Positions 49,170 through 59,133 of a stretch of DNA of 64,000 bases are shown here, piece by piece. The position numbers were made by a program, and so were the translations under genes. Every line of letters starts with the position of its first letter. The first letter of the stretch is position 1. The notes beneath the pieces were generated by a model. It did no database searches. It was not told where the DNA came from and saw nothing but the letters and a program-made list of their open reading frames with translations. The stretch comes from Gymnodinialimonas sp. 57CJ19 (GTDB lineage Bacteria > Pseudomonadota > Alphaproteobacteria > Rhodobacterales > Rhodobacteraceae), in assembly GCF_038396845.1 (NCBI RefSeq), contig NZ_CP151587.1, positions 3,756,001 to 3,820,000 of the forward strand, given 5' to 3'.

Positions 49170-50051
49170 ATGTTCAGCTTTTGCTCCGATCCCTCCACCC
49201 TCGACACGTTCCGCTGGTTCAGCTGCTACCTGACCAACGGCGTTCATATCCTGTTTTATCAGAGCTTTCTGACCGTCGGCCTGCTGCTGTTAATCGCCGC
49301 CCCCCTGTCGCTTGGCATCGGCTTTGCCGCCGCCACCGCCAGCCGCGCCCGTAACCTGCCCGCGCGACTGATCGGCAAAACCTACACCGCCATGGTGCGT
49401 GGCGTGCCCGATATCGTGTTCTTCCTGTTCTTCGTGCTCGTGCTGGATCAAGGGATCGAATACATCCGCCATATCGTAACCTGCCCCGACTGGGACGAGC
49501 CGATCCGCCAAGGCGCCAACTTCCTCGTGTGCGACGCGGCCCGCACGCCCCAAGGCAACGCCCCACAATGGGTACATGAAAGCTACAACTTCGCCCTGGC
49601 TACATTCACCTACGCCATCGTCTTCGGCGCATTTTGCGGCAACGTGCTCTACGGCGCGATGGGCGCTGTTCCCAAAACTCAATTGGAGACCGCAAGCGCA
49701 TATGGCATGTCTCAACGGCAAATCTTCTGGCGCATCTTGGTGCCGCAAATGTGGGTCTACGCGCTGCCGGGCCTATCCAACATCTGGATGATCCTGATCA
49801 AGGCGACCCCCCTGCTGTTCCTCCTGGGGATCGAAGATATCGTCTACTGGGCCCGTGAAATCGGTGGCTCTCGCAATTCCCGCTTTGCGTATCCGCACCC
49901 GGATTGGCGCTTCTGGTACTTCCTTGGGCTGTTGATCTTCTATCTCTGCTTCACTCGTGTGTCGGAACTCGTCCTCTCTCGCCTCACCCACCGCCTCTCC
50001 CGGGGCCAAGCCACCGCGGGCGGCGAAGCCCTGCGCAAGGCCGCCCCATGA
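49170..50051 (+). CDS. amino-acid/amine ABC transporter permease
   Basis: This 293-residue inner-membrane protein of the HisQ/HisM family has an EAA-loop related stretch GAVPKTQLETASAYGMSQRQIFWRILVPQMW. It has five or more transmembrane helices, including FYQSFLTVGLLLLIAAPLSLGIGF and MVRGVPDIVFFLFFVLVLD. The start MFSFCSDPSTLD fits the family; the upstream frame extension has no similarity. It should pair with the permease at 50167 in a heterodimeric importer. Confidence 0.92.
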   Translation: MFSFCSDPSTLDTFRWFSCYLTNGVHILFYQSFLTVGLLLLIAAPLSLGIGFAAATASRARNLPARLIGKTYTAMVRGVPDIVFFLFFVLVLDQGIEYIRHIVTCPDWDEPIRQGANFLVCDAARTPQGNAPQWVHESYNFALATFTYAIVFGAFCGNVLYGAMGAVPKTQLETASAYGMSQRQIFWRILVPQMWVYALPGLSNIWMILIKATPLLFLLGIEDIVYWAREIGGSRNSRFAYPHPDWRFWYFLGLLIFYLCFTRVSELVLSRLTHRLSRGQATAGGEALRKAAP

Positions 50052-50074
50052 GCGCCCGCCGCCCCGCTCCGCCA

Positions 50075-50160
50075 AAGACTTTTGCAAAAGTCTTCCCAGA
50101 GCCTTGCAAGGCTCTGCCCACGCCCTTGCAAGGGCGTGCCAAATCCTTTGCAAAGGATTT
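50075..50160. repeat. array of four 20-bp palindromes, TTGCAA centre
   Basis: Four perfect 20-bp palindromes occur at 50075-50094 (AAGACTTTTGCAAAAGTCTT), 50097-50116 (CAGAGCCTTGCAAGGCTCTG), 50119-50138 (CACGCCCTTGCAAGGGCGTG) and 50141-50160 (AAATCCTTTGCAAAGGATTT). All are centred on TTGCAA and separated by the dinucleotide CC, giving an exact 22-base period. The array fills the gap between the two permease genes and ends 6 bases before the second start codon. A second, related array lies at 57569-57656. Confidence 0.95.
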
Positions 50161-50166
50161 CCCCGC

Positions 50167-51006
50167 ATGACCTGCATCGACGCGATCCAAGCCTACGCCC
50201 TGCGTGCCATCGGCATCGGCGAACGCGCCTTGCCCCAGGGCGAAATCAGCCTTTGCGAACAATTCGTTCTGATCGGCTCCGGCATGATCTGGAACGTCTA
50301 CTTCGGCGTCCTCGCCCTCTCCTTCGGCTTCTTCTTCGCCCTGGCCCTCGCCTTGGCGAAAACCTCGCCGCGCTGGCTGATCCGCAAACCGGCAGAATGG
50401 TTCATCTTTCTGTTCCGAGGCTCGCCTCTCTTCATCCAATTCTTCATGGCCTATGAAGCCTTCGTGATGATCCCCCGCATGGGCTACGAATTCGAGCTGT
50501 TCGGCATCGCGATCGAAGCTGAAACCCGTTGGTTGGCCCGGGCCTGGCTTGGCGCCCTGATCGTCTTGTTTTGCAACACCTCCGCCTATGCCGCCGAGAT
50601 CTTCTACGGCGCGCTCCGCTCCGTTCCCAAAGGTGATCTGGAAGCCGCCGATGCCTACGGCCTGACCGGCTGGAAAAAGTTTCGCCGCATTACCTTCCCC
50701 ACTACCATGCGCCTCGCTTGGCCTGCCTACACTAATGAAGCGATCTTCCTGTTTCACGCCACAGCGTTGGTGTTCTTCAGCTCTTTCCCCGCTTTCCAAC
50801 AGCGCGGCGACGCGCTCTATTACGCCTCATATTTCGCCGACCGGACGTTCAACCCCTTCATCCCCTACCCCATCGTGGCGGGCTATTTCATCGCCGTGGC
50901 TCTGCTGGTCATTGCGCTATTTGGCGCCATCAACCGCCGCCTCAACCGTCACCTCCCCTCTGACCAGAAGCGTCGCCTCCGCATCCGCCCCACTCTCATC
51001 CGCTAA
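50167..51006 (+). CDS. amino-acid/amine ABC transporter permease, second subunit
   Basis: This 279-residue HisM-like permease has transmembrane segments such as MIWNVYFGVLALSFGFFFALALALA and the EAA loop GALRSVPKGDLEAADAYGLTGWKKFRRITFPTTMRLAWP. The segment FRGSPLFIQFFMAYEA is typical of polar amino-acid importers. The ATG at 50167 lies just after the palindrome array, so the ribosome-binding region is formed by the array's last palindrome and the following CCCC, with no purine-rich site. Translation may thus be weak or structure-dependent. Confidence 0.92.
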   Translation: MTCIDAIQAYALRAIGIGERALPQGEISLCEQFVLIGSGMIWNVYFGVLALSFGFFFALALALAKTSPRWLIRKPAEWFIFLFRGSPLFIQFFMAYEAFVMIPRMGYEFELFGIAIEAETRWLARAWLGALIVLFCNTSAYAAEIFYGALRSVPKGDLEAADAYGLTGWKKFRRITFPTTMRLAWPAYTNEAIFLFHATALVFFSSFPAFQQRGDALYYASYFADRTFNPFIPYPIVAGYFIAVALLVIALFGAINRRLNRHLPSDQKRRLRIRPTLIR

Positions 51007-51092
51007 GCCTGCCCCCACAAACGGCACTTGCGAGGTCACCGCCTCAGGCGTAAGGCTCATGCATCTCAACCCTCTTTACCCCCCTGTGTCCC

Positions 51093-52445
51093 ATGACCGC
51101 TCCCCAGGCTCCGGCCGACTTCCTTCACGATAATCCGCAAATCAAATCCATCCGTATGGTCGCCTCTGACCTGAACGGCCAAGCCCGTGGCAAACGGGTT
51201 GCCCGGCGTTTCGCGGGCAAGGCGATCAAGGACGGTACCCGCTTTCCCTATTCGGTCCTTAACCTCGATATCTGGGGCGAAGACATCGACGACAGCCCCC
51301 TGGTGTTCGAGGCCGGTGACCCCGATGGCATCCTCTACCCCACCTCCCGTGGCCTGGTGCCCGTCCCTTGGCTGGAAACCCCTACGGCGATCCTGCCGAT
51401 CTGGATGTTCCACGACGACGGCACCCCCTATATGGGCGACCCTCGCCACGCCCTGGCCCGTGTGGTCGACCGCTACAAGGCGCGCGGCCTCACCCCCGTG
51501 GTCGCCACGGAGCTGGAGTTCTACATCATCGACGACCGGGGCCGCGAACTCCGCGTGCCGCCCTCGCCGCGCTCCGGCATCCGCCGCCAACAGGCCGAGA
51601 TCCTCGCCCTGCGCCAACTCGACGCCTTCGACACCTTCCTCACCGCGCTCTATGACGCTTGCGAGGCGATGGATATCCCCGCCGACACGATGATCTCCGA
51701 AGCCGGCCCCGGCCAGTTCGAGATCAATATGGACCACCAGCCCGATGCGATGAAAGCCGCCGACGACGCTTGGCTGTTCAAGGTCCTGACCCGGGGCCTC
51801 GCCCGCTCCCATGGGTTTGCCGCCAGCTTCATGGCCAAACCCTACCCCGATTACGCCGGTAATGGCCTCCATACGCACTTCAGCGTCCTCGACGCCGACG
51901 GGAACAACATCTTCGACAACGGCGGCGCTGAAGGCTCCGACACGCTGCAGCACGCCATCGCCGGCTGCCTCGCCGCCATGCCCGGCTCCATGCTGATCTT
52001 TGCGCCCCATGCCACCAGCTACGACCGCTTCGTGCCCGGTGCCCATGCCCCCACCGCCGCCGCTTGGGCCTATGAGAACCGGACCACCGCCCTGCGTATC
52101 CCCGCGGGCAACCCCTCAGCGCGCCGGATCGAACACCGCGTCGCGGGCGGCGATATCAATCCCTACCTCTTCCTCGCCGCCGTCCTCGGCGCCGCCCTCG
52201 ATGGGATCGAACAAGGCCTCCCCCCCGCCCCTGCGATCCAAGGCAGCGCCTACACGGCCGAGCTGCCGCAACTGCCCCTTACCTGGGCCGATGCCATCAC
52301 AGCTTTCGACCAATCCCCTGAGATTCAACGCATCTTCGCCCCCGAACTGCGCGAAACCTTCCTCGCCACCAAACGCCAGGAACTCAAATACATGGCCGAC
52401 CTCTCCCCCGAAGAACAACAGGAGCTCTACCTCGACACCGTCTGA
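51093..52445 (+). CDS. glutamine-synthetase-like ligase, PuuA type (first copy)
   Basis: This 450-residue enzyme of the glutamine synthetase fold most likely joins glutamate to an amine, as gamma-glutamylputrescine synthetase does. Active-site landmarks are present: ATELEFYII, SEAGPGQFEINMDHQ, NGLHTHFSVLD and SYDRFVPGAHAPTAAAWAYENRTTALRIP with the ATP/glutamate-binding Arg, followed by RRIEHRVAGGDINPYL. The N-terminal MVASDLNGQARGKRV is typical of the PuuA-like group rather than true GlnA. It opens the catabolic cluster directly after the importer genes. Confidence 0.88.
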   Translation: MTAPQAPADFLHDNPQIKSIRMVASDLNGQARGKRVARRFAGKAIKDGTRFPYSVLNLDIWGEDIDDSPLVFEAGDPDGILYPTSRGLVPVPWLETPTAILPIWMFHDDGTPYMGDPRHALARVVDRYKARGLTPVVATELEFYIIDDRGRELRVPPSPRSGIRRQQAEILALRQLDAFDTFLTALYDACEAMDIPADTMISEAGPGQFEINMDHQPDAMKAADDAWLFKVLTRGLARSHGFAASFMAKPYPDYAGNGLHTHFSVLDADGNNIFDNGGAEGSDTLQHAIAGCLAAMPGSMLIFAPHATSYDRFVPGAHAPTAAAWAYENRTTALRIPAGNPSARRIEHRVAGGDINPYLFLAAVLGAALDGIEQGLPPAPAIQGSAYTAELPQLPLTWADAITAFDQSPEIQRIFAPELRETFLATKRQELKYMADLSPEEQQELYLDTV

Positions 52446-52453
52446 CCCTCACG

Positions 52454-52487
52454 CAACGCTCCCCCATTCATCTTGGCCTTACAACTC
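52454..52487 (+). repeat. 34-bp intergenic element, copy 3
   Basis: This reads CAACGCTCCCCCATTCATCT then TGGCCTTACAACTC. It matches copies 1 and 2 with a few substitutions and runs directly into the tandem GC palindromes at 52493-52542. It lies in the gap between the first ligase and the amidotransferase gene. Confidence 0.75.
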
Positions 52488-52492
52488 CGGGG

Positions 52493-52542
52493 GTTTGGGG
52501 GCTGGCCCCCAATGAAGGTTGCGTTTGGGGGCTGGCCCCCAA
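52493..52542 (+). repeat. two tandem GC-rich palindromic units
   Basis: The 20-base unit GTTTGGGGGCTGGCCCCCAA occurs at 52493-52512 and 52523-52542, 30 bases apart. Each contains arms TTGGGGG and CCCCCAA around CTGG, a strong hairpin. The pair resembles REP-type intergenic repeats. Confidence 0.9.
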
Positions 52543-52588
52543 GTCGCCAACCAATCCACCCACCACTCCAAACCACACGAGCTTCCCC

Positions 52589-53290
52589 ATGCACCTCGGC
52601 ATCTTGCAAACCGGACACGTCCCCACCGAAGTCGCTTCCACCGATGGCCCCTATGCCACACTGTTCCGCAAGCTCTTTGCGCACCGCGGCTTCAGCCAAA
52701 CGCTATGGTCCGTGGTCGATGGAGAATTCCCCTCCGGCCCCGAAGCGGCCGACGCTTGGCTGGTGACGGGCTCCAAACACGGTGCTTATGAAGATCACGC
52801 CTGGATCCCCCCGCTGGAGGACCTGATCCGCGCGATCCGTGAAGCGGAAATCCCTCTCGTGGGGTCCTGCTTCGGGCACCAGATCATTGCCCAAGCGCTC
52901 GGCGGCACGGTGGAAAAATACGCCGAGGGTTGGTCCGTGGGCCGCACTCAATACAAGGTCGGCGACCAGACCCTGAACCTCAACGCCTGGCACCAGGACC
53001 AAGTCACCCAGCTGCCCGACGGGGCGACGGTCCATGCCTCTTCCGACTTCTGCGCCAACGCGATCGTGGCCATCGGGCCGCGCATCCTGACCACACAACC
53101 GCACCCGGAATTCGCCAACTCGGTCATCGAGTCGTTGATCGACCTGAAAGGCGACGCCGTGGAACCCGACCGTTTGGCCATCGCCAAAACCCTGCTGTCC
53201 GAGCCCAACGACAACCGCCTGATCGCCGATTGGCTCGCCGACGTGCTAGAAGGGGCGGACGCCACAAAACCAAGGGACTTTTCCCAATGA
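52589..53290 (+). CDS. class I glutamine amidotransferase-like hydrolase
   Basis: This 233-residue protein has the full class I amidotransferase triad: Cys94 in GSCFGHQ, His172 and Glu174 in QPHPEF. Stand-alone members include GMP synthase-like hydrolases, and related Puu enzymes release glutamate from gamma-glutamyl-GABA. In this cluster a gamma-glutamyl hydrolase role fits well, though it belongs to the GuaA-like branch rather than the PuuD branch by its GSCFGHQ motif. Its stop overlaps the next ligase gene by four bases. Confidence 0.85.
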   Translation: MHLGILQTGHVPTEVASTDGPYATLFRKLFAHRGFSQTLWSVVDGEFPSGPEAADAWLVTGSKHGAYEDHAWIPPLEDLIRAIREAEIPLVGSCFGHQIIAQALGGTVEKYAEGWSVGRTQYKVGDQTLNLNAWHQDQVTQLPDGATVHASSDFCANAIVAIGPRILTTQPHPEFANSVIESLIDLKGDAVEPDRLAIAKTLLSEPNDNRLIADWLADVLEGADATKPRDFSQ

Positions 53291-54648
53291 TTCCCGCCGA
53301 ATTTCTCGCCAAACTGCCCGATGTCGCCCGCACCTACCTGGAGGGCCGCACCCTGGATGAGGTCGAATGTATCGTCTCGGACCTTGCGGGCGTGGCGCGG
53401 GGCAAGGCGATGCCGGGTACGAAATTTGCGCGCCAGACCCAGTTCTACCTGCCCAACTCGATCTTTTTCCAGACCATTACAGGGGATTGGGCCGATGAGG
53501 TCGGCGATGGCTTCACCGAGCCGGACATGATCCTGACCCCGGATTTTGACACCGCCCTGCCCGCCCCTTGGACAGCCGATTGGACGCTTCAGGTGATCCA
53601 CGACATCCACGACCAACAGGGCGACCCGGTCTCTTTCGCGCCGCGCAACGTGCTGAAACGGGTGGTGGAGCTCTACAACGCGCGGGGCTGGCAGCCGATT
53701 GTTGCCCCCGAGATGGAATTCTACCTCGTCGCCCCCAACACCGACCCGGCGCAGGAAATCGTGCCGCCCATGGGCCGCTCTGGCAGACGCGCGGCGGCGC
53801 GGCAGGCGTATTCCATGTCCGCCGTGGATGAATACGGTCAAGTCATTGATGATATTTACGATTTCGCCGAGGCGATGGGGCTGGAGATTGACGGCATCCT
53901 GCAAGAAGGCGGCGCAGGCCAGATCGAATTGAACCTGCGTCACGGCGATCCGGTCAAGCTCGCCGATGAGATGTTCTACTTCAAGCGGATGATCCGGGAA
54001 GCGGCGCTGAAGCACGATATGTACGCGACTTTCATGGCCAAACCCATCGCCGGAGAGCCGGGGTCCGCGATGCATATCCACCACTCGGTCGTGGACGCGG
54101 CGACGGGGCAAAACATCTTCTCGGACGCCGATGGCGCGGAGACCCCCGCCTTCATGCATTTCATCGGCGGCATGCAACGCAACATGCCCGCCGTGATCGC
54201 CCTTCTGGCGCCCTATGTGAACAGCTATCGCCGCTATGTACCTGATTTCGCCGCCCCAATTAACCTCGAATGGGGGCGCGACAACCGGACCACAGGGCTG
54301 CGGGTGCCGGTCTCCGGCCCCGAGGCGCGGCGGGTGGAAAACCGTCTTCCGGGGATGGATTGCAACCCTTATCTGGGTATCGCCGCCAGCCTTGCGACAG
54401 GCTATCTGGGCTTGGTGGAGGGCAAAGGTCCGTCCGAGGAATTCAAGGGCGACGCCTATTCCGCCGAAAGCGGTGTGCCGCGCGGGTTGGGTGACGCTCT
54501 GGGCCTGCTGGAGGCCAACCTGGGCGTGCGCCAATGCTTGGGAGAGGACTTCTGCCGCGTCTATTCCGGCGTCAAGCAGTTGGAATATAACGAGTTCCTG
54601 CACGTCATCAGCCCTTGGGAGCGGGAGCATTTGTTGCTGAATGTCTAG
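53287..54648 (+). CDS. glutamine-synthetase-like ligase, PuuA type (second copy)
   Basis: This 453-residue protein is a second glutamine synthetase homologue with intact active-site motifs: APEMEFYLV, EGGAGQIELNLRHG, AMHIHHSVVD, NSYRRYVPDFAAPINLEWGRDNRTTGLRVP, and RRVENRLPGMDCNPYL. It is only distantly similar to the first copy, so the two probably act on different amines or one is regulatory. The ATG overlaps the amidotransferase stop (ATGA), giving translational coupling. Confidence 0.88.
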   Translation: MIPAEFLAKLPDVARTYLEGRTLDEVECIVSDLAGVARGKAMPGTKFARQTQFYLPNSIFFQTITGDWADEVGDGFTEPDMILTPDFDTALPAPWTADWTLQVIHDIHDQQGDPVSFAPRNVLKRVVELYNARGWQPIVAPEMEFYLVAPNTDPAQEIVPPMGRSGRRAAARQAYSMSAVDEYGQVIDDIYDFAEAMGLEIDGILQEGGAGQIELNLRHGDPVKLADEMFYFKRMIREAALKHDMYATFMAKPIAGEPGSAMHIHHSVVDAATGQNIFSDADGAETPAFMHFIGGMQRNMPAVIALLAPYVNSYRRYVPDFAAPINLEWGRDNRTTGLRVPVSGPEARRVENRLPGMDCNPYLGIAASLATGYLGLVEGKGPSEEFKGDAYSAESGVPRGLGDALGLLEANLGVRQCLGEDFCRVYSGVKQLEYNEFLHVISPWEREHLLLNV

Positions 54649-54952
54649 ACACGCGCCCGGCAGCAAGGATTGGTGGCTTGAGACCGCCCTGATCGCGGGC
54701 AGCGGCGTTGCTCTGGCGGCTTTCCTTTGGGACGGGCCGATATTTGCGGGCGGCGACGCCGTGTCTGCGGCCACGCCAATGGTCGCGCCCGGACCTGCGC
54801 GCGCCCCCGCGCCTGTGCCTGTGCCTGTGCCTCGAACGGTGGCGGACCTGGTGGATGCGGGCTGCCTGACCCAGGAAAACCTTCGCGCCATGGTGGAAGG
54901 CCGAACGATCTACGTGGCCTGCCCGTTGCATCCGCAGGATCCCTCGCCATGA
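54641..54952 (+). CDS. small membrane-anchored hypothetical protein
   Basis: This 103-residue protein has one hydrophobic stretch (TALIAGSGVALAAFLW), a Pro/Ala-rich linker (APAPVPVPVPR) and a short C-terminal part with two Cys (GCLTQENL and ACPLHPQ). It overlaps the ligase gene by 8 bases and the FAD oxidase gene by 4, so the frame is enclosed in a tightly packed operon. The family is not recognised. Confidence 0.55.
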   Translation: MSRHAPGSKDWWLETALIAGSGVALAAFLWDGPIFAGGDAVSAATPMVAPGPARAPAPVPVPVPRTVADLVDAGCLTQENLRAMVEGRTIYVACPLHPQDPSP

Positions 54953-56244
54953 ACGCGCTTTATCGCAACGACCGCCCCGGACGCCACGCGCCTTCGGTCT
55001 ATGCAGCGGGCGTCAGTGCGCCGGAACGCGCCCCCCTGACCGGAGAAATCAGCGTTGATGTGGCGGTGATCGGCGCGGGCTTCACCGGGTTGTGGGCCGC
55101 GTTGACCTTGGCGAAAGCCGGGCGGTCTGTGGTGGTGCTGGACGCGCACCGCGTGGGTTTTGGCGCCTCTGGGCGCAACGGCGGGCAGGTGCATTCGGGC
55201 TTCAACATGGGCCAACGGGCGTTGGAGGACCGCTTGGGCAAGGACCGCGCCCACGCCCTGTGGGACTTGGCGGAAGCGGGCAAGGACCAGCTCCGCGCTT
55301 TTTGCGAAACGGCCCCGGAAACCCACTATCGCCCCGGCGTGGCCCATGGCGAATACAGCCCCCTGTCTTTGGCAGAGGCCCGCCTGGAGGCCGATCATAT
55401 GGCCCGGAACTACGGGCTGAAAACCGACGTCATGGGCCGTGACGCCTTTGCAGAATTGGTCAAAGCCCCCGCCTATGTGGGTGGCACTTTGGACGAAAGC
55501 GGCGGGCATTTGCAGCCTTTGGCCTATGCCTTGGCTTTGGCCCGCGCCGCCGAGGCCGCAGGCGCGGTCATATTCGAGCGGACCGAAGTGCTGAGCGTGA
55601 CAGAGGGGACGCGGGTGCGCCTGACCACGCCGCGCGGGCGCATCAATGCGGGCCACGTGATTGCCGCGGGCAATGGCTATCTGCCGAACCTGTTGCCGCA
55701 GGTAAACCGCAGGGTCATGCCGATCAATTCCTTCATCGCCGCGACCGAGCCGCTTCCCGAGCGCTGGCACGAGGTCATGGCCCGAGACATCGCCGTATCC
55801 GATAGCAAGTTCGTGGTGAATTATTATCGCTTCGACCACGAGAGGCGGTTCCTGTTTGGCGGGCGGGAAAGCTACTCCATCGGATTTCCCAAAGACATTA
55901 AGACGGCCCTCGTTGCGCGGATGGCGCAACTGTTCCCGCAGCTCTCCGGCGTGAAGGTGGATTACGTGTGGGGCGGATCGCTGGGAATAACGCCAAGCCG
56001 CCTGCCCCATGTGGCCCGCGTCGGCTCCAAGGTGCTGTCTGGGGCCGGATTTTCCGGCCACGGGGTCGCGCTGAGCGGGATGGCGGGCCGGGTAATGGCC
56101 GAGGCTGTTCTGGGCCAAGAAGACGGCTTGGCCACGTTCGACACCCTGAAAATCCCTGCGTTTCCAGGGGGTACGGCCCTGCGCACGCCGATCCTGACGC
56201 TGGCCATGTCGTGGTTTGCGTTGCGCGATCGCATCGGCCTCTAG
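54949..56244 (+). CDS. FAD-dependent amine oxidase, PuuB/OrdL-like
   Basis: This 431-residue DAO-family flavoprotein has a Rossmann motif DVAVIGAGFTGLWAALTLAKAGRSVVVLDA, then GFGASGRNGGQVHSGF and the C-terminal GAGFSGHGVALSGMAGRVMAEAV that closes the FAD site. In the Puu pathway the equivalent enzyme oxidises gamma-glutamylputrescine to an aldehyde. The partner aldehyde dehydrogenase is not in this window. It overlaps the preceding small gene by four bases. Confidence 0.9.
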   Translation: MNALYRNDRPGRHAPSVYAAGVSAPERAPLTGEISVDVAVIGAGFTGLWAALTLAKAGRSVVVLDAHRVGFGASGRNGGQVHSGFNMGQRALEDRLGKDRAHALWDLAEAGKDQLRAFCETAPETHYRPGVAHGEYSPLSLAEARLEADHMARNYGLKTDVMGRDAFAELVKAPAYVGGTLDESGGHLQPLAYALALARAAEAAGAVIFERTEVLSVTEGTRVRLTTPRGRINAGHVIAAGNGYLPNLLPQVNRRVMPINSFIAATEPLPERWHEVMARDIAVSDSKFVVNYYRFDHERRFLFGGRESYSIGFPKDIKTALVARMAQLFPQLSGVKVDYVWGGSLGITPSRLPHVARVGSKVLSGAGFSGHGVALSGMAGRVMAEAVLGQEDGLATFDTLKIPAFPGGTALRTPILTLAMSWFALRDRIGL

Positions 56245-56349
56245 GCAAAAACCGGACAATTTCCGCTGACGGCGACGTTGTCGCTTTTCTGTGCCGTTCT
56301 TCTGCATATATAAGCAAAACGAAATATCACATTTTGAAATGGTGAATAT

Positions 56350-57561
56350 ATGTCCACGCTGTCCGCTCCGAACGTCTACGACGCCGAACCGATCCCCGAG
56401 GCCGCCCGCGCCGAGATTGACCGTCTTCTGCAAAGCGGCGACCTGTTTCGCTACACCGCCCCCGAAGACGCGCCCGTAGCCCTGCTGGAGCGTGAATTCG
56501 CCGCGATGATGGGCACGAAATACGCGCTGGCGGTGTCGAGCTGTTCGGCCGCGCTGTTCTTGTCGTTGGAGGCGCTGGATCTGGGCAAGGACGCCAAGGT
56601 AATGATCCCCGCGTTCACCTTTGCCGCCGTCCCGTCGTCCATCGTGCACGCGGGCTTGCAGCCGGTCCTGTGTGAAGTGGCCGACAACTACCGCGTCGAT
56701 ATGGTTGATTTCATGGAGAAACTACCCGGCGTGCAAGCGGTTCTGATCAGCCACATGCGGGGCCATACCTCGGACATGGACGCGATCTCGGCCGCCTGTG
56801 AAGCGGCGGGCGTGCCACTGATCGAAGATGCGGCCCATTCCCTGGGAACCGAGTGGCACGGCAAGAAGATCGGCACGATCGGCAAGGTTGGCTGCTTCAG
56901 CTTCCAGTCCTACAAATTGATTAACGCGGGCGAAGGCGGGATCATGATCACCGACGACGCAGATCTGGTGGCGCGCGCCGTGATCATGTCGGGCGCCTAT
57001 GAGCATAATTGGGCGAAGCACGGCGATGACACTGCGCTGGTAGAGGCCTTTGGCCGCTGGCAGAACAAGCTGCCGCTCTACAACCTGCGGATGCAGAACC
57101 TGAGTGCAGCCGTGATCCGGCCCCAATTGCCCGAAGTGGCGCGTCGGGTACGCGACGGCCGCAAGAACCACGACTACGTAGCTGCGGCGCTGAACACCTC
57201 GGATTGGCTGAATGTGCCGGACCCCCTTGGCCCGGAAGAGCGCGCACCGGATTCAATCCAGTTCAACCTGCAAGGCTTTGACAGCGACGCCGAGGCCCGC
57301 GCCTTCGCGGACGCCGCCGCCGCAAGGGGCGTGAAGGTGCAGATCTTCGGCCTGAGCACGGACAACGCACGGGCCTTCTGGAACTGGCAATTTATCCCCG
57401 GGGACCTGCCCGAGCTGCCCCAAACCCGAGCGATGCTGATGCGCGCCTGTGACGCCCGTTTGCCCGCGAGGCTGCAAAAAGCAGACCTCGACCACATCAT
57501 CGGGGCGCTCCTGTCCGCCGCCGAAGACGTCAAAGGCACCGCTCGCGCCTACGGCACGTGA
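56350..57561 (+). CDS. DegT/DnrJ/EryC1-family PLP aminotransferase
   Basis: This 403-residue fold-type I PLP enzyme has the family pattern MMGTKYALAVSSCSAALFLSLEAL, PAFTFAAVPSSIVHAGLQPV, IEDAAHSLGTEWHGKKIGTIG, and the Schiff-base Lys in FQSYKLINAGEGG. The family usually transfers an amino group to sugars, although others act on amino acids or alcohols, so the function in an amine pathway is open. A 105-base AT-rich gap separates it from the oxidase; the palindrome array follows its stop. Confidence 0.88.
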   Translation: MSTLSAPNVYDAEPIPEAARAEIDRLLQSGDLFRYTAPEDAPVALLEREFAAMMGTKYALAVSSCSAALFLSLEALDLGKDAKVMIPAFTFAAVPSSIVHAGLQPVLCEVADNYRVDMVDFMEKLPGVQAVLISHMRGHTSDMDAISAACEAAGVPLIEDAAHSLGTEWHGKKIGTIGKVGCFSFQSYKLINAGEGGIMITDDADLVARAVIMSGAYEHNWAKHGDDTALVEAFGRWQNKLPLYNLRMQNLSAAVIRPQLPEVARRVRDGRKNHDYVAAALNTSDWLNVPDPLGPEERAPDSIQFNLQGFDSDAEARAFADAAAARGVKVQIFGLSTDNARAFWNWQFIPGDLPELPQTRAMLMRACDARLPARLQKADLDHIIGALLSAAEDVKGTARAYGT

Positions 57562-57568
57562 GCCGCAC

Positions 57569-57656
57569 AAATCTTTTGCAAAAGATTTGCGAACGCCCTT
57601 GCAAGGGCGTTGGACAGAGCCTTGCAAGGCTCTGTTCAGGGTTTTGCAAAACCCTG
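57569..57656. repeat. second array of four 20-bp palindromes, TTGCAA centre
   Basis: Palindromes at 57569-57588 (AAATCTTTTGCAAAAGATTT), 57592-57611 (AACGCCCTTGCAAGGGCGTT), 57615-57634 (CAGAGCCTTGCAAGGCTCTG) and 57637-57656 (CAGGGTTTTGCAAAACCCTG) have spacers of 3, 3 and 2 bases. The middle two match palindromes 3 and 2 of the array at 50075-50160, and the first resembles its last one, so the order is reversed. It lies 7 bases after the aminotransferase stop. Confidence 0.95.
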
Positions 57657-57771
57657 ATGCCGGACGGGAGAGAAGGGCGGCGGGTGAGATAATGCGCCGT
57701 CTCGATAATCCCTATTGAGGGAGGCGCGGCGCAGGCGTACCTTCGGGCAACCTTGTTTGAGAGTGTTCGAC

Positions 57772-59133
57772 ATGACGACAAATCCCCCCAACTCCTGGGA
57801 AGCCCGTGCCGAGGAATATTCGCTTTACGGCTTCACTGATCTGCCTTCGATCCGAGACCGTGGCACGGTGGTCGTGACCCATGGCGAGGGTCCGTATATC
57901 TATGACACCAATGGCAAAAAGTACCTCGATAGCAATTCCGGCCTGTGGAACATGGTGGCCGGATTTGATCACAAAGGTTTAGCCGAGGCCGCCAAGGCGC
58001 AGTATGATCGCTTCCCCGGCTACCATGCCTTTTTTGGCCGGATGTCAGATCAGACCGTCGCGCTATCGGAGCGGCTTATCGATGTCAGCCCTTGGGACCG
58101 GGGCAAGGTATTTTACACCAACTCGGGATCTGAGGCCAATGACACCATGGTCAAGATGCTGTGGTTCATGGGTCGCGCAGAAGGAACGCCGCAGAAGCGG
58201 AAAATCCTGACACGGGGCAACGGGTACCATGGGGTAACGGCGGTCGCGGCCTCGATGACGGCGAAGCCCTACAATGAGGTGTTTGGCCTACCGATGGACG
58301 GGTTCATTCATCTGACCTGTCCACATTATTGGCGTGAGGGCGCTGAGGGGGAGACTGAGGCCGCCTTTACCGCCCGTCTTGCCCGTGAGTTGGAGGATGT
58401 GATCGCGCGCGAAGGCGCGGACACCATCGCCGGTTTCTTTGCCGAGCCGGTTCTGGGTGCGGGCGGTGTGATCCCGCCGCCGGAAGGCTATTTCCAAGCT
58501 ATGCAGGCGGTGCTTGAGAAGCATGACATTCCCTTGATCTCTGACGAGGTTATCTGCGGGTTCGGCCGAACGGGCAATACGTGGGGGTGCGAGACCTATG
58601 ACTTTGTGCCGGATGTCATCATCTCCTCTAAGGCTCTGACCGCCGGGTATTTTCCCATGGGCGCGGTGATGCTTGGGCCGCGGATGGCGGACCGTTTGCT
58701 GGCCGCCATTGATCCGATTGAGGAGTTCCCGCACGGGTTCACCGCCAGCGGCCATCCGGTGGGCTGTGCAGTGGCGTTGAAGGCCATCGACGTCGTGCTT
58801 GAGGAGGGCCTCCTGGACATGGTGCGCGCGGGCACGGGCCGGATGGAGGCTGGCCTTCGAGACATCGCCAAGCACCCCAACATCGGAGAGTTGCGCGGCG
58901 TGGGATACATGTGGGCGTTGGAGGCGGTGCGAGAGGGCAAGATTCCGTTTGAAGGCCATTTGAGCGTCTCGGAGCGGATTGCAAATGCCTGCACGGATCA
59001 CGGGTTGATCTGTCGTCCCTTGGGACAAGCGGTGGTGTTGTGCCCGGCGTTTACGCTGACGGATGGGCAGATGGACGAGATGTTTGAAAAGCTCGACGCT
59101 GCGTTGCAGCAGGTATTCTCCGAGATCACGTGA
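57772..59133 (+). CDS. class III PLP aminotransferase
   Basis: This 453-residue omega-aminotransferase has a C-terminal PLP core: FYTNSGSEANDTMVKMLW, GNGYHGVTAVAASMT, EPVLGAGGVIPPPEGYF, ISDEVICGFGRTG, and the Schiff-base Lys in ISSKALTAGYFPMGAVM. The family transfers the terminal amino group of diamines, beta-alanine, taurine or similar compounds to pyruvate or 2-oxoglutarate. In this cluster a polyamine or another amine released by the pathway is the likely donor. The ATG at 57772 precedes MTTNPPNSW; the upstream frame extension is unlike the family. Confidence 0.92.
   Translation: MTTNPPNSWEARAEEYSLYGFTDLPSIRDRGTVVVTHGEGPYIYDTNGKKYLDSNSGLWNMVAGFDHKGLAEAAKAQYDRFPGYHAFFGRMSDQTVALSERLIDVSPWDRGKVFYTNSGSEANDTMVKMLWFMGRAEGTPQKRKILTRGNGYHGVTAVAASMTAKPYNEVFGLPMDGFIHLTCPHYWREGAEGETEAAFTARLARELEDVIAREGADTIAGFFAEPVLGAGGVIPPPEGYFQAMQAVLEKHDIPLISDEVICGFGRTGNTWGCETYDFVPDVIISSKALTAGYFPMGAVMLGPRMADRLLAAIDPIEEFPHGFTASGHPVGCAVALKAIDVVLEEGLLDMVRAGTGRMEAGLRDIAKHPNIGELRGVGYMWALEAVREGKIPFEGHLSVSERIANACTDHGLICRPLGQAVVLCPAFTLTDGQMDEMFEKLDAALQQVFSEIT

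Follow-up and report, generated by a model that had tools for sequence, protein, structure and literature searches.

Tandem palindromes with conserved pairing and spacing behind stop codons in Gymnodinialimonas, filed as REP-like extragenic hairpins

The stretch of 64,000 nucleotides analysed here (the window) belongs to the genome of Gymnodinialimonas sp. 57CJ19 (G000), which consists of a single contig of 3.86 Mb. Two neighbouring permease genes are found on its forward strand. The upstream gene (49170..50051) is assigned to a HisQ/ArtQ-like permease of a polar amino-acid ABC transporter and the downstream gene (50167..51006) to a second, HisM-like permease, both below the curated cut-offs. 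The named records most similar to the downstream permease come from Rhodobacteraceae-type genomes, including four that bear the label Roseicyclus. The intergenic gap (50052-50166) houses an array of four palindromes, listed from the sequence without a strand: AAGACTT-TTGCAA-AAGTCTT (unit 1, 50075..50094), CAGAGCC-TTGCAA-GGCTCTG (unit 2, 50097..50116), CACGCCC-TTGCAA-GGGCGTG (unit 3, 50119..50138) and AAATCCT-TTGCAA-AGGATTT (unit 4, 50141..50160). The array lies 23 nt behind the TGA of the upstream permease. A sequence-only reading of the window had described four TTGCAA-centred palindromes, each perfect over its 20 bp and followed by CC, at a period of exactly 22, and all of this is borne out by the sequence. 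The constant CC is seen in the window array and in its orthologues in two related genomes (G002 and G012); over the 96 arrays chained in five genomes (see below), CC makes up 17 of the 113 two-base linkers.

The ATG of the second permease starts 116 nt past the last base of the upstream stop codon. The sole Shine-Dalgarno-like stretch seen by eye near this start is AAAGGA (50152-50157), which is part of the 3' arm of unit 4, within the last hairpin, at a distance of 9 nt from the ATG that starts at 50167. The same reading held that the array replaces the expected ribosome-binding site. The site is not simply lost, given the Shine-Dalgarno-like stretch within unit 4, and in six relatives (G001, G003, G006, G008, G009 and G010) the permease genes overlap as a bare ATGA which, by eye, leaves no room for a separate site.

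A second array of four TTGCAA palindromes, with spacings of 23, 23 and 22, was identified from the sequence at 57568..57657 (no strand assigned); the sequence-only reading had not listed it. It begins 6 nt after the stop codon of a forward-strand ORF of 403 amino acids (56350..57561), which appears aminotransferase-like by eye. Altogether, the window contains 8 palindromes of at least 20 bp in two clusters, compared with 0, 0, 1, 1 and 0 in five first-order Markov versions.

For the whole genome, the pattern TTGCAA-N10-24-TTGCAA gave 44 forward matches vs 1 for a reversed control pattern. Three loci without palindromes (L003, L020 and L028) were excluded, which leaves 23 TTGCAA-centred arrays of two to four units each. 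A predicted stop codon faces the array at a distance of at most 30 bp in 22 of them; the exception at 2713140 lies between divergent genes. Ten array-adjoining proteins were profiled. Those that scored above the curated cut-offs are RuvA, RuvB, PaaA, PaaB, release factor 2 and a beta-ketothiolase, which share no common theme. The ruvA-ruvB and paaA-paaB gaps are examples of arrays inside operons. A stretch of 0.84 Mb (1503758-2343137) of the 3.86-Mb chromosome is free of arrays and may lie on the side of the replication terminus.

In five genomes of the genus (G000, G002, G004, G011 and G012) 96 arrays with 260 units were chained, 14-26 arrays in each. Two units are present in 52 arrays, three in 20 and four in 24. 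The spacing is 22 (113 steps), 23 (44), 24 (4) or 25 (3), so that 157 of 164 steps are 22 or 23; the corresponding linkers measure 2, 3, 4 and 5 nt. Spacings of 20, 21, 26 and 27 were permitted by the chaining and did not occur among the 164 steps. The chaining script skips arrays in which the linker creates an extra TTGCAA (2851514 in G000, 1034402 in G004 and 2315843 in G011), and therefore 22 of the 23 arrays of G000 enter the statistics. Arrays 60-80 bp apart, of which G004 has four pairs and G011 has one, were counted separately. Pattern matches which were non-palindromic by their matched letters were excluded (G012: 1187331; G004: 1371583 and 2115097; G002: 866437, 1083499 and 2545104; G011: 475796, 2586017, 3429337 and 3449352). 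Outside the chained arrays, 372 kb of loci contain 8 TTGCAA palindromes of at least 16 bp, all of them 41-49 bp from an array, and in 7 of the 8 cases the intervening step is occupied by an inverted repeat whose centre is altered. Solitary units were not found in the window or in these 372 kb, which consist of loci chosen for their arrays.

The letters of the arms are largely free. The 260 units carry 57 distinct arm words, of which CAGAGCC, the word of unit 2 in the window, is the commonest (35 of 260). Near-constant positions are the centre, which is fixed by the search design, and the A2/T19 pair. At the same time, when the seven outer pairs of each unit are counted, 1805 of the 1820 arm cells form Watson-Crick pairs, for a set that by construction requires at least 4 of 7 cells to be paired and leaves out units with other centres. 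Two of the 15 exceptions are G-T, and 247 of the 260 units are perfect over all seven pairs. Among 64 distinct units, 98.1% of 576 cells are paired and the covariation score is 0.748, vs 0.216 (sd 0.018) after shuffling and at most 0.287 for slid partners. Comparison of orthologous arrays gives the same picture. In 91 comparisons, restricted to equal unit numbers and drawn from ten non-independent genome pairs, differences are seen at 165 of 312 linker sites and in the length of 25 linkers. Of the 1792 arm pairs, 98 show two-sided changes, all of them still paired, and 13 show one-sided changes. Arms that are kept despite such widely changed linkers indicate that the units are old and constrained. 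Identical units do not occur within any one array (0 of 256; shuffle mean 9.9 for the 96 arrays); one array outside the 96 (L140 in G007) has two. The lack of identical neighbours could arise from loss by slippage.

The centre can vary as well. For 58 units of G007, in which at least 8 of 9 pairs were demanded and the strands collapsed, the central two bases are GC (22), CG (21), CA (10), AC (3) or GA (2), so that the central pair is non-self-complementary in 15 units. Centres such as GG, GA, TC and GT are also found in in-register units outside G007. In G003, where the same demand on pairing was made, two units made of G and C only stand in register among TTGCAA units at similar spacing (L351 1488-1600 and L353 1503-1620). 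A free centre between paired arms means that asymmetry is allowed at the apex and symmetry is required in the arms, which matches the requirement of a hairpin. The central claim of the sequence-only reading, that it is symmetry and spacing and not sequence that are conserved, is thus strongly supported by the pairing and spacing of the units, the covariation, the two-sided arm changes and the varied centres. The variable yet matching arms also speak for hairpins over an ordinary dimer-binding site.

The arrays are tied to the 3' ends of genes. Using gene calls from a simple codon-score script, 94 of the 96 arrays face a predicted stop codon, 82 of these at a distance of at most 30 bp and 62 of at most 15 bp, with a median of 12 nt. 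The two others, the array of G000 mentioned above as an exception (L019 2440-2482) and its orthologue in G002 (L275), are located between divergently predicted genes; a short gene or transcript may have been overlooked there. Convergent genes flank 39 arrays, many of which are 15 bp or less from both stops, and co-directional genes flank 55, with the next start at most 50 bp away in 27 of them. In 29 tandem gaps with at least 80 bp to spare, the array is closer to the upstream stop in 24. TGA is the stop codon in 83 of 112 cases at arrays vs 190 of 329 elsewhere, a count that includes non-independent orthologues. Taken together, the position next to the stop and the nearness to the upstream stop in roomy tandem gaps point to the transcript.

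When folded as RNA, the window array is predicted to form four hairpins with -38.6 kcal/mol for 86 nt, and with its flanks it reaches a z of -3.6. The ensemble defect of the 96 arrays is 0.256 vs 0.377 (sd 0.034) for 20 re-deals of their units; they are thus predicted to fold into separate hairpins better than re-dealt units. A row of independent hairpins is exactly the structure of minimum energy in no more than 56 of the 96. No T-run follows the arrays, as the T fraction is 0.00-0.30 at each position from +1 to +15 of 61 oriented arrays. In 61 arrays no convincing polarity of the sense strand was detected: the arm G+C is 3.26 of 7 in the first and 3.57 of 7 in the last unit, and it is higher in the first unit of 15 arrays and in the last of 28.

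Within the genus, arrays of this kind are found in part of the genomes. The sequence-only reading had named two outcomes that would refute it, the lack of a second genome with such runs and unrelated random palindromes in the permease gaps of relatives, and neither came about: seven of 13 genomes of the genus carry TTGCAA arrays and six have none, and six genomes have an array at this junction. These are G000, G002, G004, G007, G011 and G012, where GGAGG (G004) and CGGAG (G012) can be seen by eye between the array and the permease start. In the six genomes with the bare overlap, the second permease starts inside the ATGA of the first, and therefore translation of the array-free pair is probably coupled. 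With regard to the target-site duplication of a MITE-like mobile element, ATGA flanks the permease insert on both sides, a motif that the two genes themselves require. In the remaining genome (G005, L144, ~1350-1500) the junction holds a different insert, in which two hairpin-like inverted repeats, TCTTTTCC-ATAA-GGAAAAGA and GGGGGC-AGA-GCCCCC, were recognised by eye, and therefore this junction accepts other inserts. The ruvA-ruvB array is limited to G000, G002 and G004 and absent from the other ten genomes. On a tree of ruvB and the permease for the 13 genomes, at least two changes in array presence are needed. Runs longer than 28 bp are shared by 3 of 918 array pairs within genomes, two of which represent one event in G000 and G002. 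The longest, of 50 bp, connects the paaA-paaB array with the window array. Shared unit pairs keep the same linker in 3 of 15 cases. Arrays can be copied, with few recent traces left.

Beyond the genus, 198 genomes sampled from the family were searched. A TTCGAA version is conspicuous in some of them, for example with 46 matches vs 0 for the control in G219, 44 vs 0 in G214, 20 vs 0 in G096 and 19 vs 1 in G014. TTGCAA is conspicuous outside the genus mainly in G053 (18 vs 1), and the majority of the 198 genomes have few matches and no clear excess with either fixed-centre pattern. Pairing is again nearly complete, with 446 of 448 cells at 28 loci of G214 (spacing 21-26) and 307 of 308 cells at 22 loci of G219 (spacing 22-23). 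Gene calls are weak in both genomes, so that no orientation could be assigned to 17 of 30 arrays in G214 and to 14 of 22 in G219. In G219 (odd-numbered L225-L239 and L286-L299) the linker is exactly GC in 19 of 22 cases, and therefore TTT-GC-AAA forms an extra small palindrome; linkers in the own genus are free. A census independent of the centre was made at 80 named permease loci (1,477,060 bases). It revealed 72 palindromes, compared with 11 in a single Markov-shuffled version. Neighbours at most 200 bp apart gave 17 distances, of which 13 are 22-24; the shuffled version had none of these. These 13 fall in six of the 80 loci (L057, L058, L060, L104, L118 and L124), of which L057/L058 and L104/L124 have similar, non-independent arrays, and their centres are TTGCAA, TTCGAA, CTCGAG, CCCGGG and others.

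The sequence-only reading had offered a protein-binding array, a structured RNA and a mobile palindromic element, and the structured RNA fits best. We propose that the arrays act as REP-like hairpin fences on mRNA, a reading to which we would give an even chance of being correct. In the mRNA that continues beyond the stop codon, each palindrome would form a hairpin with 8 pairs and the apex UNNA, and two or more of these hairpins would line up immediately after the ORF, with mostly 2-3 nt between them. RNA would be the active form. By analogy with REPs of E. coli, the row of hairpins would hinder 3'-to-5' exonucleases, the terminating ribosome or both, and would thus set the level of the upstream vs the downstream cistron, here of permease 1 vs permease 2. 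With a start 116 nt past the stop and a Shine-Dalgarno-like stretch inside a hairpin, the window array may alter the ratio of the two permeases. The position on the transcript side, the missing T-run, the sites within operons and the reports on REPs and mRNA decay lead us to favour this reading. The six array-free genomes of the genus count against it, as do the lack of a convincing polarity of the sense strand and the limited share of arrays (56 of 96) whose exact minimum-energy structure is a row of independent hairpins.

Its main difficulty is the scarcity of G-U, as RNA helices usually tolerate some. G-T pairs make up 2 of 1820 cells and are absent from the 3 mismatches in G214 and G219 and the 10 in G007 and G003. 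The modelled cost of one U-G pair has a median of 2.7 kcal/mol, for hairpins with a median of -7.7 kcal/mol, and this cost may explain the scarcity. No G-U excess was found in the arrays, and ordinary gene 3' ends of the family (685 analysed) have stems with one G-U in 34 cases and stems with one A-C in 32. Since ordinary 3' hairpins lack this excess over A-C too, the scarcity does not separate RNA from DNA. The best 9-bp stem of the ordinary 3' ends is perfect in 65 cases, compared with 5.3 in shuffles, and contains a single non-Watson-Crick pair in 92, compared with 39.3. It is their perfection that sets the arrays apart from ordinary 3' hairpins, given 247 perfect units of 260 under criteria that are not identical.

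A fairly unlikely alternative to the mRNA fence is that the arrays are transcription terminators or attenuators, i.e., hairpin clusters without a U-tract that work in both directions between convergent genes. The 39 arrays between convergent genes, many of them close to both stops, would fit this function, as would the 9-bp stems found well above chance at ordinary 3' ends of the family. In passages of Gupta and Pal (PMC8355165), hairpin clusters near stop codons are described to terminate transcription and poly-U is often absent. However, 55 of the 96 arrays are co-directional, 27 of them with a nearby start, and full termination would be costly in ruvA-ruvB, paaA-paaB and the permease pair. 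The lack of a T-run together with the positions in operons argues against plain termination.

More doubtful is an element that acts at the level of DNA, where the palindromes would either extrude hairpins or cruciforms or offer an architectural protein an array in helical phase. A distance of 22 bp is close to two helical turns, and TNNA is a favourable apex in DNA hairpins. Strict Watson-Crick pairing, the absence of convincing sense-strand polarity, and a spacing of 22-24 bp where centres and arms differ between genera are in line with such an element. However, anchoring behind stops and near absence from divergent gaps would be unexpected for an architectural site, the spread of 21-26 in G214 weakens the phasing, and ordinary 3' hairpins are also free of a G-U excess over A-C. 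A related reading, which we consider just as improbable, extends to several genera: pairing and spacing would be inherited, letters free and apices lineage-specific, and the near absence of G-U would mark DNA, or both strands, as the selected form, read by a hairpin-recognising factor that spreads or repairs the element.

No more probable is a selfish dispersed repeat that is copied from 3' end to 3' end, is tolerated at these sites and owes its perfect pairing to copying or to hairpin-templated repair and not to a use for the cell. The lineage-specific presence, with at least two changes on the tree, the empty sites at the permease junction (six genomes) and at ruvA-ruvB (ten genomes), and the 50-bp run shared by two arrays of the own genome would be expected from such a repeat. 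Shared runs and kept linkers are rare, however, and orthologues keep their arms even where the linkers have widely changed. The mobile palindromic element of the earlier reading fits the presence in particular lineages and the few arrays that have been copied, but no Y1 transposase (PF01797) was matched in the five array genomes G000, G002, G004, G011 and G012. The two other array genomes gave one weak PF01797 match each, at 21.2 bits in G003, which is below the cut-off, and at 22.9 in G007 (23.3 with its neighbours, over the cut-off), and 5 of 14 control genomes have a match. The base-for-base covariation of the variable arm positions makes a protein-binding array of the usual dimer type less likely, and a dimer-binding protein cannot account for arms that vary and still match.

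The arrays are a natural experiment in structure without sequence, with compensated arms, freely changing linkers and other-centre versions in further genera. They would permit a clean test of how, within operons, tandem hairpins behind stops influence termination, the decay of mRNA and translation, and of the origin and spread of such elements where no REP transposase is detected.

Several known systems were compared with the arrays. A known RNA family was rejected because no Rfam covariance model matched, neither in the window at 49900-58000 (E up to 1) nor at 19 array loci (gathering score). The search for plasmid and phage relatives yielded four 26-bp matches to Bradyrhizobium plasmids, at E 0.9 only, and none to phages. 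Iteron and operator arrays of dimeric proteins are palindromes in helical phase. The arrays share this phasing and differ in that the arm letters are free and pairing alone is kept; an array of this type was rejected because the arms co-vary without a common half-site, and in G007 the centre varies too. A canonical Rho-independent terminator was rejected for the missing T-run. Hairpin-cluster terminators (passages of PMC8355165) are more similar, with hairpins less than 15 nt apart behind the stop and a dispensable poly-U, and the arrays show this geometry, with linkers of 2-5 nt and a median of 12 nt from the stop. In contrast to these terminators, the arrays have a regular spacing of 22-23, a centre shared within the clade, near-perfect palindromes and sites within operons. 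The main text of that paper contains none of the terms 'rhodobacter', 'palindrom' and 'spacing'. Inverted repeats enriched 3' of stop codons, with arms less polymorphic than spacers, are described in passages of PMC13155455; arrays with fixed spacing do not appear in those passages.

The closest likeness is to REP/BIME elements, as both are short hairpins of extragenic DNA that occur between cistrons and at the 3' ends of genes; of the 94 arrays that face a predicted stop, 82 lie within 30 bp of it. Known REPs go with a Y1 transposase (RAYT), and a REP/RAYT system proper was rejected because the transposase was not found in the five array genomes. The arrays also have no REP-type palindrome consensus, given their 57 distinct arm words in 260 units. 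They differ from REP/BIME elements further in their near-perfect pairing, their units, which in the loci covered were seen only in or next to arrays of two or more, and their spacing of mostly 22-23. REP hairpins of E. coli affect mRNA decay. In passages of PMC12306157, E. coli REPs less than 16 nt from the stop are reported to lower translation, and according to passages of PMC7866481 secondary structures can shield RNA from 3'-to-5' decay. In the literature covered, which is without most subscription papers, no description of such arrays was found in Rhodobacterales. We file the arrays as REP-like extragenic hairpins that stand out by their tandem order, near-fixed spacing, near-perfect pairing and free letters.
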